The notes under the pieces are model-generated. The model was not told where the DNA came from. It did no database searches and worked only from the letters and a program-made list of their open reading frames with translations. DNA of 64,000 nucleotides from Urbifossiella limnaea. GTDB taxonomy: Bacteria > Planctomycetota > Planctomycetia > Gemmatales > Gemmataceae. A program made the translations under genes and the position numbers. Shown here in pieces: positions 10,131-61,380 of this stretch; positions within the stretch are counted from its first letter, which is position 1; every line of letters begins with the position of its first letter. The stretch covers positions 6,184,322 to 6,248,321 of the forward strand of contig NZ_CP036273.1 in NCBI RefSeq assembly GCF_007747215.1, in the 5' to 3' direction.

Positions 10131-10195
10131 GTCAGGCCGGGGCGCGAGCCCCGTCGGGGTTCAGACGCCCGACGGGGCTCGCGCCCCGGCCTGAC
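10131..10195. repeat. 28-bp perfect palindromic repeat, family B
   Basis: Arms 10131-10158 and 10168-10195 match perfectly around a 9-base loop. The core reads GGGGCGCGAGCCCCGTCGGG. The element lies between the response regulator and histidine kinase genes. A close relative sits inside the hrpB coding sequence at 59995-60056. As RNA it would form a very stable hairpin, and it could reduce read-through from regulator into kinase. Confidence 0.9.
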
Positions 10196-58561: not shown

Positions 58562-58642
58562 GTCGGACCTCCGAACAGTGGTGAGGGGAGCGTAAGCGGG
58601 CGCGGGGCGGGCGTCAACGCATCTGGCGCGACGCCGAGGCTA

Positions 58643-58758
58643 CCCGGGGCTTCCGCCCCGGGCTAACGACGGCCGCCCCTCCGGGGCTCAAGACCGTTGG
58701 CTCGGAGCTTCAGCCCCGGAGGGGCGGCCGTTCTTAGCCCGGGGTGGAAACCCCGGGC
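58643..58758. repeat. nested palindromic element
   Basis: A pair of outer hairpins CCCGGGG/CCCCGGG (58643-58662 and 58737-58758) flanks a 20-bp perfect inverted repeat (58669-58688 and 58712-58731). The halves together form 34-bp arms (58655-58688, 58712-58745) with a few mismatches. It fills most of the space between the divergent protease and hrpB genes, where promoters are expected. Confidence 0.8.
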
Positions 58759-58806
58759 GGCCGTGGCGGTGTCACGACCAACTCCCGCCCGCCGTAAACT
58801 TCCCCC

Positions 58807-61380
58807 ATGCCCCGCGACCCGCTGCCGATCGACGCCGCGCTTCCCGAACTGCTCGCCGCCGTCCGCGCCTCGCGCGCCGCCGTCCTCCGCGCTCCCACCG
58901 GCGCCGGCAAGACGACCCGCGTCCCCCCGGCGCTGCTCGACGTGGTTCCCGGCACCGTCGTGATGCTCGAGCCGCGGCGCGTCGCCGCCCGCGCCGCGGC
59001 GCGCCGCATGGCGCACGAACACGGCTCCGCCCTCGGCGACGTCTTCGGCTATCAGGTTCGCTTCGACCGCGCCGCCGGGCCGAACACCCGCGTCCTCGTC
59101 GTCACCCCCGGCGTGCTGCTGCGGCGCCTCCACGACGACCCATTCCTCGACGGCGTCGGCGCCGTCGTGTTCGACGAGTTCCACGAGCGCGGCCTCGACG
59201 CCGACCTGGCCCTCGGCATGGTCAAGCTCGTCCGCGAGACGGTGCGGCCCGACCTGGTCGCCGTCGTGATGTCGGCGACGATCGACCCCGGCCCGGTGGC
59301 CGCGTACCTCGGCGGCGCCCCCGTCGTGGACAGCGCCGGCCGCAGCTTTCCCGTCGAAATCGTGTACCGTCCGCGCCGCACCGCCGCGGAGGGCGTCCGC
59401 GAGGCGCTCCAGCTCACCGACGGCGACGTGCTCGCGTTCCTGCCCGGCCTCCGCGAGATCCGCCACACCGCCGACGAACTCGGCGACCTCGGCGTGGAAG
59501 TGCTGCCGCTCCACGGCGACCTGCCGCCCGAGCAGCAGGACCGCGCGTTGCAGCAGCTCGGCCGCCGCAAGGTGGTGCTGGCCACGAACGTCGCCGAAAC
59601 GTCGGTGACGGTCGAGGGTGTGACCGCGGTCGTGGACACGGGGTTGGCGCGGCAGCTGGAGTTCGAGCCGGCCGTCGGCATGGACCGGCTGCGGCTCGTC
59701 CCCATCTCGCGCGCCTCGGCCGACCAGCGTGCCGGCCGCGCCGGGCGGACGCGGCCGGGCGTGTGCCTGCGGCTGTGGGACGAACCCGGCCACCGGGCCC
59801 GGCCGGAGCAGACGGAGCCGGAAATCCGCCGCGTGGACGTGTGCGGCGCCGCCCTTCAACTTCTGGCCCTCGGCGAGACCGACGTGTCGAGCTTCCCCTG
59901 GCTCGACCGCCCGCGCCCGGAGGCGATCGATCAGGCGAACCGCCTCCTCGAACAGCTCGGGTTGGTGATAGCTTCACGGGTGGTCGACGACTTGTTAGGC
60001 CGGGGCGCAAGCCCCGTCGGGGTTGATAACCCGACGGGGCTTGCGCCCCGGCCTAACGGGCTGACCGACCTCGGCCGCGAGGCGGCGCGACTCCCGGTCC
60101 ACCCGCGGCTCGGCAGGCTACTGGTGGAAGGGAAGCTCCTCGGCGACCCGCGGCGGGCGGCGCTGGCGGCGGCGCTGCTCGCCGAGCGCGACCCGTTCGT
60201 GCGGCCCGACGGCCCGCCGACGCGCACCGCGCCGCCGACCGCGTCCGACGTGCTCGATCGCGTCGAGGCGCTGGAGGCGTTCGAGCGGACGAAGCGGCTC
60301 GACACGCCGGTCGGCCAACTCCACCGCGGCGGCGCCTTCGCCGTGCTGGAGGCGCGGGATCAGTTCGCTCGCCTCCTGGCGAGCGGCGGGCGTCAGCCCG
60401 CTGTTCCGATCGACCGCGACGCGGTCGTGCTTCGGGCCGTCTTCGCCGCCTACCCCGACCGGCTGGCGCGGCGGCGCGAGCCGGGCAGCTCGCGGGCCGT
60501 CACCGTCGGCGGCCGCGGCGTGAGGCTCGCCCCCACCAGCGGCGTCCGCGAGCCCGAACTGTTCGTCTGTGCCGACGTCGATGCTGCCGGCGCCGATGCG
60601 TTCGTGCGGCTCGCGTCCGGCGTGGACCGCGCCTGGCTCCCCGCCGAGCGCCTCACCGTCCGCACGGATGTCACCTTCGACGACCAGACCGAGCGCCTCG
60701 CTGCCCGCAAGCGGACCCGCTTCGACGACCTGATTCTCGACGAGGTGCAGGCCCACATCGCCGACGAGGCCGACGCGGCCCGGGTGCTCGCCGCCGCGGC
60801 CCGCGACCGGCTGGCGAAGGTGCTCCCCGATCCCGAGTCGGACGCCGGCCGCTTCCGCACCCGCGTCCGCTGCCTCCGCGGCTGGCTCCCCGAGCTGAAC
60901 CTCCCCGCGTTCGACGCCGCCGACCTCGGCGACCTGCTCGAACACCTGGCCCGCGGCCGCCGCTCGCTCGCCGAGCTGCGGTCGGGGCCGTGGCTCGACC
61001 TGATGCGCGGGCAGCTCACGTTCGACCAGCAGCGGGCGCTCGACCGCGAGGCGCCGGACCGGCTCGAAGTGCCGAGCGGCAGCCACATCGCGTTGCAGTA
61101 CGAGGAGGGCCGCCCGCCCGTGCTGGCGGCGCGCATCCAGGAGCTGTTCGGGCTCACCGAGACGCCGCGCGTCGGCGGCGGGCGGGTCAAGGTGCTGCTG
61201 CACCTGCTCGCGCCGAACCACCGGCCGCAGCAGGTGACGGACGACCTGGCGAGCTTCTGGAAGACCGGCTACCCGCTGGTGCGGAAGGAGCTGCGCGGCC
61301 GCTACCCGAAGCACAGCTGGCCCGACGACCCGCTCACGGCCGAGGCGGTGCGCGGGGCGAGGCGGCGGCCGCCGACGTAA
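58807..61380 (+). CDS. hrpB: ATP-dependent helicase HrpB
   Basis: An 857-residue DEAH-box helicase of the HrpB group. Motif I is APTGAGKTTRVP, motif II is DEFHERG, motif III is VMSATIDPG, and motif VI is SADQRAGRAGRTRPG. The ratchet and C-terminal HrpB domains follow. Between residues 397 and 417 an in-frame palindromic repeat (59995-60056) adds GRGASPVGVDNPTGLAPRPN just before LTDLGREAARLP, the start of the winged-helix region. A smaller GTCA-loop hairpin lies at 60386-60401. HrpB's cellular role is not well established. ATG at 58807. Confidence 0.95.
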   Translation: MPRDPLPIDAALPELLAAVRASRAAVLRAPTGAGKTTRVPPALLDVVPGTVVMLEPRRVAARAAARRMAHEHGSALGDVFGYQVRFDRAAGPNTRVLVVTPGVLLRRLHDDPFLDGVGAVVFDEFHERGLDADLALGMVKLVRETVRPDLVAVVMSATIDPGPVAAYLGGAPVVDSAGRSFPVEIVYRPRRTAAEGVREALQLTDGDVLAFLPGLREIRHTADELGDLGVEVLPLHGDLPPEQQDRALQQLGRRKVVLATNVAETSVTVEGVTAVVDTGLARQLEFEPAVGMDRLRLVPISRASADQRAGRAGRTRPGVCLRLWDEPGHRARPEQTEPEIRRVDVCGAALQLLALGETDVSSFPWLDRPRPEAIDQANRLLEQLGLVIASRVVDDLLGRGASPVGVDNPTGLAPRPNGLTDLGREAARLPVHPRLGRLLVEGKLLGDPRRAALAAALLAERDPFVRPDGPPTRTAPPTASDVLDRVEALEAFERTKRLDTPVGQLHRGGAFAVLEARDQFARLLASGGRQPAVPIDRDAVVLRAVFAAYPDRLARRREPGSSRAVTVGGRGVRLAPTSGVREPELFVCADVDAAGADAFVRLASGVDRAWLPAERLTVRTDVTFDDQTERLAARKRTRFDDLILDEVQAHIADEADAARVLAAAARDRLAKVLPDPESDAGRFRTRVRCLRGWLPELNLPAFDAADLGDLLEHLARGRRSLAELRSGPWLDLMRGQLTFDQQRALDREAPDRLEVPSGSHIALQYEEGRPPVLAARIQELFGLTETPRVGGGRVKVLLHLLAPNHRPQQVTDDLASFWKTGYPLVRKELRGRYPKHSWPDDPLTAEAVRGARRRPPT
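59995..60056. repeat. 27-bp perfect palindromic repeat inside hrpB, family B
   Basis: Arms 59995-60021 and 60030-60056 pair perfectly around GTTGATAA. The core CCGGGGCGCAAGCCCCGTCG is nearly that of the intergenic element at 10131. It is read in frame with no stop and adds about 21 residues to the helicase. Confidence 0.92.

Follow-up and report, generated by a model that had tools for sequence, protein, structure and literature searches.

How did a long palindrome come to be read in frame within the gene of a conserved RNA helicase, and is it kept there as a tolerated mobile element, as a selected coding module or as a signal in the mRNA? The question is raised by the hrpB gene of the present window (the whole 64,000-nt stretch of DNA that was analysed). 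This gene, at 58807-61380 on the + strand, codes for an intact ATP-dependent RNA helicase HrpB (857 aa) and is free of stops within its frame; its product matches TIGR01970 HrpB (NCBIfam, E 1e-210) and Pfam HrpB_C. A first-pass annotation of the DNA had placed the palindrome inside the hrpB coding region and described it as read without a stop, and the uninterrupted 857-codon ORF bears this out.

Geometry of the palindrome and its place in the protein

The palindrome spans 59994-60057 (64 nt, no strand assigned) with the layout GTTAGGCCGGGGCGCAAGCCCCGTCGGG-GTTGATAA-reverse complement, in which perfect 28-nt arms without any mismatch enclose an 8-nt loop, and in hrpB it is translated as (L)LGRGASPVGVDNPTGLAPRPN; the 62-bp interval given for it earlier (59995-60056) had caught the palindrome correctly and missed its true ends by one base on each side. 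The predicted RNA fold reaches -69.4 kcal/mol, with a z-score of -12.3 against shuffles. The arm motif has four matches in the window against 0.01 expected, and these belong to two copies, at 59994 and 10131. The second copy (10131-10195, 65 nt, no strand assigned) is a G variant with the ends GTCAGG...CCTGAC and is not in frame in a gene. The core shared by the two sites upholds their earlier assignment to one family, for which the hairpin sequence is GTTAGGCCGGGGCGCAAGCCCCG. A different large palindrome, with 61-nt arms (85% complementary) and a 15-nt spacer, is present at 58632-58768 in the spacer directly upstream of hrpB.

Compared with insert-free HrpB, the protein has a net gain of 27 residues (81 nt) rather than the about 21 residues first proposed, consisting of the 64-nt palindrome and ~17 nt of unaligned 5′ sequence. 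The latter is found in the linker ATAGCTTCACGGGTGGTCGACGACTT (59968-59993, + strand), which adjoins the palindrome on its 5′ side and in which, by direct comparison, ~17 of 26 nt have no counterpart in relatives with an empty site. No target-site duplication or clear insertion rule was seen for the family.

In an AlphaFold model of HrpB made with 21 aligned sequences (mean pLDDT 83), residues 392-416 have a pLDDT <50 and lie between two short strands (~387 and ~419), preceded by a helix at 371-383 and followed by another at 421-427. We take the two strands to be the beta-hairpin of the winged-helix domain, following the established DEAH architecture, and hence the insert lies within this domain and not before it; the original placement between helicase core and winged-helix region is thus superseded. 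According to the model, the palindrome encodes a predicted disordered surface loop at the tip of this beta-hairpin. Known structures of DEAH/RHA helicases match the model, E. coli HrpB 6heg (Z 48) being one of them, and the alignment of HrpB with the E. coli HrpB sequence in the PDB is also interrupted at the insert position.

The repeat family and its candidate transposase

Of 25 Gemmataceae HrpB genes whose sequence covers the insert position, 22 lack the insert and have just a short turn between ‘...LGLL’ and ‘LTxLG’, and the empty sites include those of two sister species in the same genus (G090 and G091); a comparison with HrpB of related Gemmataceae had been proposed earlier as a check. 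The closest HrpB (87%, G089) is not readable at the insert site because its contig begins downstream of it.

In the genome (7.80 Mb, one contig), the arm pattern with ≤3 mismatches has 120 matches against 5 for a reversed control, and about 61 doublets (119 strand hits) are recovered by a covariance model based on 25 copies, such presence of a short palindromic unit many times in one genome being a REPIN trait; copies were examined in 55 stretches around the genome hits. An inverted REP pair joined through a variable spacer into one hairpin, a further trait of REPINs, is likewise found, with near-invariant arms, a variable loop sequence and a total length of 61-76 nt (65 nt in 38/61 copies and 64 nt in 12/61). 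A single arm folds as CGGGGC-GCAA-GCCCCG and has the 5′ end GTTAG, compared with the GTAG foot of the classic REP. The hrpB insert is a REP doublet, a non-autonomous hairpin element of REPIN type. A variant of the family is present in one congener, G089 (26 arm hits), and the remaining Gemmataceae are at background; the family is confined to the source species and, as this variant, to G089. No prior report of the family, or of REPs in Gemmata, was found in the open-access literature.

The copies are unevenly spread over the chromosome, with 3 of 61 in 1.7-5.4 Mb (binomial p ~2.5e-13, for boundaries picked after viewing the data). Genes with a DnaA domain occur at 0.28 Mb, where the match is best, and at the start of the contig, and thus the copy-poor half is far from the presumed origin. 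At one locus (L085, G000:C1:635490-635692), two identical copies lie 126 nt apart, apparently inside a tandem duplication.

A RAYT-like Y1 transposase gene (RAYT/TnpA-REP) is located at G000:C1:986408-986878, between 73-nt family copies at 986337-986409 and 986882-986954. In class 3 RAYT systems, REPs of the associated family flank the Y1 HUH transposase gene, and here copies stand on both sides of it. The match of the protein to Pfam Y1_Tnp (E 1.8e-5) is over the cut-off and that to NCBIfam REP_Tyr_transpos (E 3e-7) is below the equivalog cut-off. Its motifs NHVHVVV, WWTERG and YVLDGQ are largely common to its homologues and come close to the class 3 signature (NHVH, W[TA], Y....Q; PMC6006769). 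However, the 5′ end of the family, GTTAG, is neither the 5′ CnGA foot of class 3 nor the canonical GTAG, and because of the difference from CnGA we call the enzyme class-3-like rather than a member of class 3.

Palindromes are present at 9 of 11 homologue loci of other Gemmataceae, usually immediately next to the gene, on one flank or on both; two of them start with GTTAGCC, and most hold GCGC(A/G)AGC or a close variant. The homologues in G061, G008, G028, G037, G064, G067 and G082 are each accompanied by their own palindromes, whose core in most cases resembles GCGC(A/G)AGC, and at the short homologue loci of G045 and G055 no flanking palindrome was found. That gene and hairpin vary together is the strongest indication that enzyme and elements belong together. 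The intact transposase gene occurs in the genome that also carries the full family; a close copy of the gene was not found in the 84%-complete assembly of G089, which carries the variant family. The RAYT-like enzyme probably mobilises the family.

Copies inside genes and the origin of the insert

Three of about 62 copies lie in frame in coding sequence, a count to be read as a careful estimate rather than an annotation, as genic status was judged with a codon-usage scorer for which the window and the loci served as training set. They are found in hrpB, in the gene of the 2-oxoacid dehydrogenase E2 (L084 2176-3345, linker between the lipoyl and E3-binding domains) and in that of apolipoprotein N-acyltransferase Lnt (L096 1938-3617, loop between LNT_N and the nitrilase domain). 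The family is therefore mostly extragenic, as is usual for REPINs. All three copies translate LGRGASPVG...TGLAPRPN, in loops or linkers; the count of genic copies and their frame, proposed earlier as a check, thus gives a single frame. Spanning ORFs at 5581872, 108939, 5464455, 990991 and other positions were rejected as genic, since their codon scores were weak or negative on at least one side or no plausible single protein resulted. Because random insertion in a dense bacterial genome would mostly fall in genes, we infer strong purging of genic insertions.

The most probable origin, which we hold with considerable confidence, is that a REP doublet of this family was mobilised by the class-3-like RAYT, inserted in the hairpin turn of hrpB and survived there as a tolerated loop. 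The REP-associated Y1 transposase would mobilise the doublet, perhaps via a single-stranded DNA intermediate, and the doublet would have entered the turn of the winged-helix beta-hairpin after the split of the source species from its sister species. Survival would have been possible because palindrome and flank together kept the frame, because the reading frame in use is free of stops and yields a short flexible peptide, and because the hairpin tip may tolerate a disordered loop. The insert is probably neutral for the helicase.

A different account of the shared frame is that the family is kept translatable as a coding module, the added peptide (LGRGASPVG..TGLAPRPN) benefiting or tuning its host proteins, and the first-pass annotation had likewise suggested selection for a protein-compatible form. 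The three genic copies do share one frame and nearly one peptide, and their lengths (64, 76 and 64 nt) are all 1 mod 3, compared with 2 mod 3 for 38/61 copies, the chance of drawing three from the 18/61 pool being ~0.025. However, both remaining frames of the 64-nt form usually run into TAG, TAA, TGA or loop stops, so that survivors must share one frame and the frame of the genic copies is largely forced; nearly the same peptide would also be read in either orientation, because the element is a palindrome. Moreover, the 65-nt form, which is the commonest, has a different open frame encoding the basic peptide VRPGRKPRR...RPGL, which was not found in genes, and the genic copies are few, although insertion at random in a dense genome would leave most copies in genes. 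The shared frame hence looks like survivorship and not like selection for a coding form, the earlier suggestion is not sustained, and a selected module seems to us quite improbable.

We give the same low standing to a function at the RNA level, in which the 28-bp hairpin in hrpB mRNA would act in regulation or processing (pausing, RNase III-type cleavage) and so tune HrpB synthesis. The predicted RNA hairpin is very stable (-69 kcal/mol), and Neisseria NEMIS hairpins in mRNA are cleaved by RNase III (PMC2229807), but the hairpin is missing from hrpB of nearly all relatives and the frame is open throughout, so that a conserved regulatory role is not indicated. The view that the insert is ancestral to HrpB, or is just an ordinary lineage-specific loop whose palindrome arose by chance, has nothing in its favour except the length variability of the region; with an arm motif found ~120 times in the genome, sister species with an empty site and a fold z-score of -12, its probability is negligible, and the empty sites and the repeat family refute it.

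Independent gains in HrpB and relation to known systems

The turn that carries the doublet in the source species is also occupied in two other genera, by a 21-residue insert in G020 and an 18-residue insert in G045, and both inserts belong to another, GTAG-tagged REP family, GTAGCCGGCCTCTGTGAGGCCGG, whose arm has 60 hits in G020, 18 in G045 and none in the source genome. A quick HrpB tree plus parsimony gives at least three separate gains at this site. In another family of the class (L217, G391:C122), a palindrome TCAGCCTTTCCAGGCTGACCCGA is in frame in HrpB after reference residue 44; it represents yet another repeat family, with 57 arm hits in the G391 genome. No other long palindromic insert was found among the about 70 HrpB loci examined. 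The HrpB length outliers of the class (G290, G196, G212, G256, G366 and G377) do have inserts, but these are without a long palindrome.

These gains could be read as going beyond mere tolerance, with the winged-helix hairpin of HrpB as a recurrent landing site for unrelated planctomycete REP families, through which the helicase would be repeatedly modified via its RNA-binding domain or a hairpin-bearing mRNA. This reading, which takes in two repeat families in three genera and a third family elsewhere in the HrpB of another planctomycete family, we regard as unlikely, though less so than a coding module or an RNA signal.

Proline-rich peptides occur in HrpB near reference residue 535 (L043/L201 of G045 and L226 of G018) and in the Lnt loop of L161 (G090). 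The variable loops of different proteins, from different genera, repeatedly contain peptides like PSVTPSPLRG, PAVTPLPFRGGGLGG and PIPLPRGGRG, which suggests another translated repeat family.

REPs of the GTAG and CGTC super-families lying wholly inside ORFs were reported in 2013 from many species, with dimers and groups adding 20-30 residues (PMC3733652); the richest GTAG case was Opitutus terrae, of the PVC group, RNA helicases were among the targets, and recB of two Xanthomonas species carried different REPs at nearly the same position. The hrpB element is similar in being an inverted REP dimer wholly inside the ORF of an RNA helicase. It differs in its GTTAG foot, its GCGC(A/G)AGC hairpin and its Gemmataceae host, the 24 GTAG families of that study standing outside this comparison, and in that, across three genera, the same position of the same gene is occupied by two unrelated families. 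As REPs in Planctomycetes and intragenic REPs of Opitutus terrae, RNA helicases included, were already published there, the earlier impression that a planctomycete counterpart would be new holds for the Gemmataceae family and host and not for the phenomenon. Like the REPIN-RAYT systems described in 2011 (PMC3116915), the present one has inverted doublets that fold into a single long hairpin, a loop less conserved than the arms and a RAYT gene flanked by copies; the Pseudomonas families are almost wholly extragenic and have hundreds of copies, whereas here there are about 61 copies, three of them genic and in frame, and a class-3-like RAYT. Class 3 TnpA-Y1 transposases are reported mainly from Planctomycetes (PMC6006769), and our system shares with them the NHVH, W-T and Y....Q motifs, the planctomycete host and the high-copy flanking hairpins, but has GTTAG on simple symmetric hairpins in place of a CnGA foot and atypical structures.

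The comparison with Rickettsia RPE made at the outset was apt as regards the outcome, which in both cases is a palindromic repeat translated in frame within a conserved protein, here a family copy missing from close relatives. RPE are Rickettsia-specific and 105-146 bp long, and the RPE-carrying enzyme Gmk is active with altered substrate affinity (reviewed in PMC2229807); the present element, of 64 nt, from a planctomycete and linked to a RAYT, is not an RPE.

The insert is thus of a known kind with a new family and host, and the recurrence in the same loop across three genera is the fresh part. RAYT-linked REP insertion into proteins is extended to Gemmataceae, with empty sites, repeat family and candidate transposase found together. 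Moreover, the independent entry of unrelated mobile hairpins into the same loop of a protein is a natural replicate, which makes the choice between tolerance and an altered helicase directly testable.
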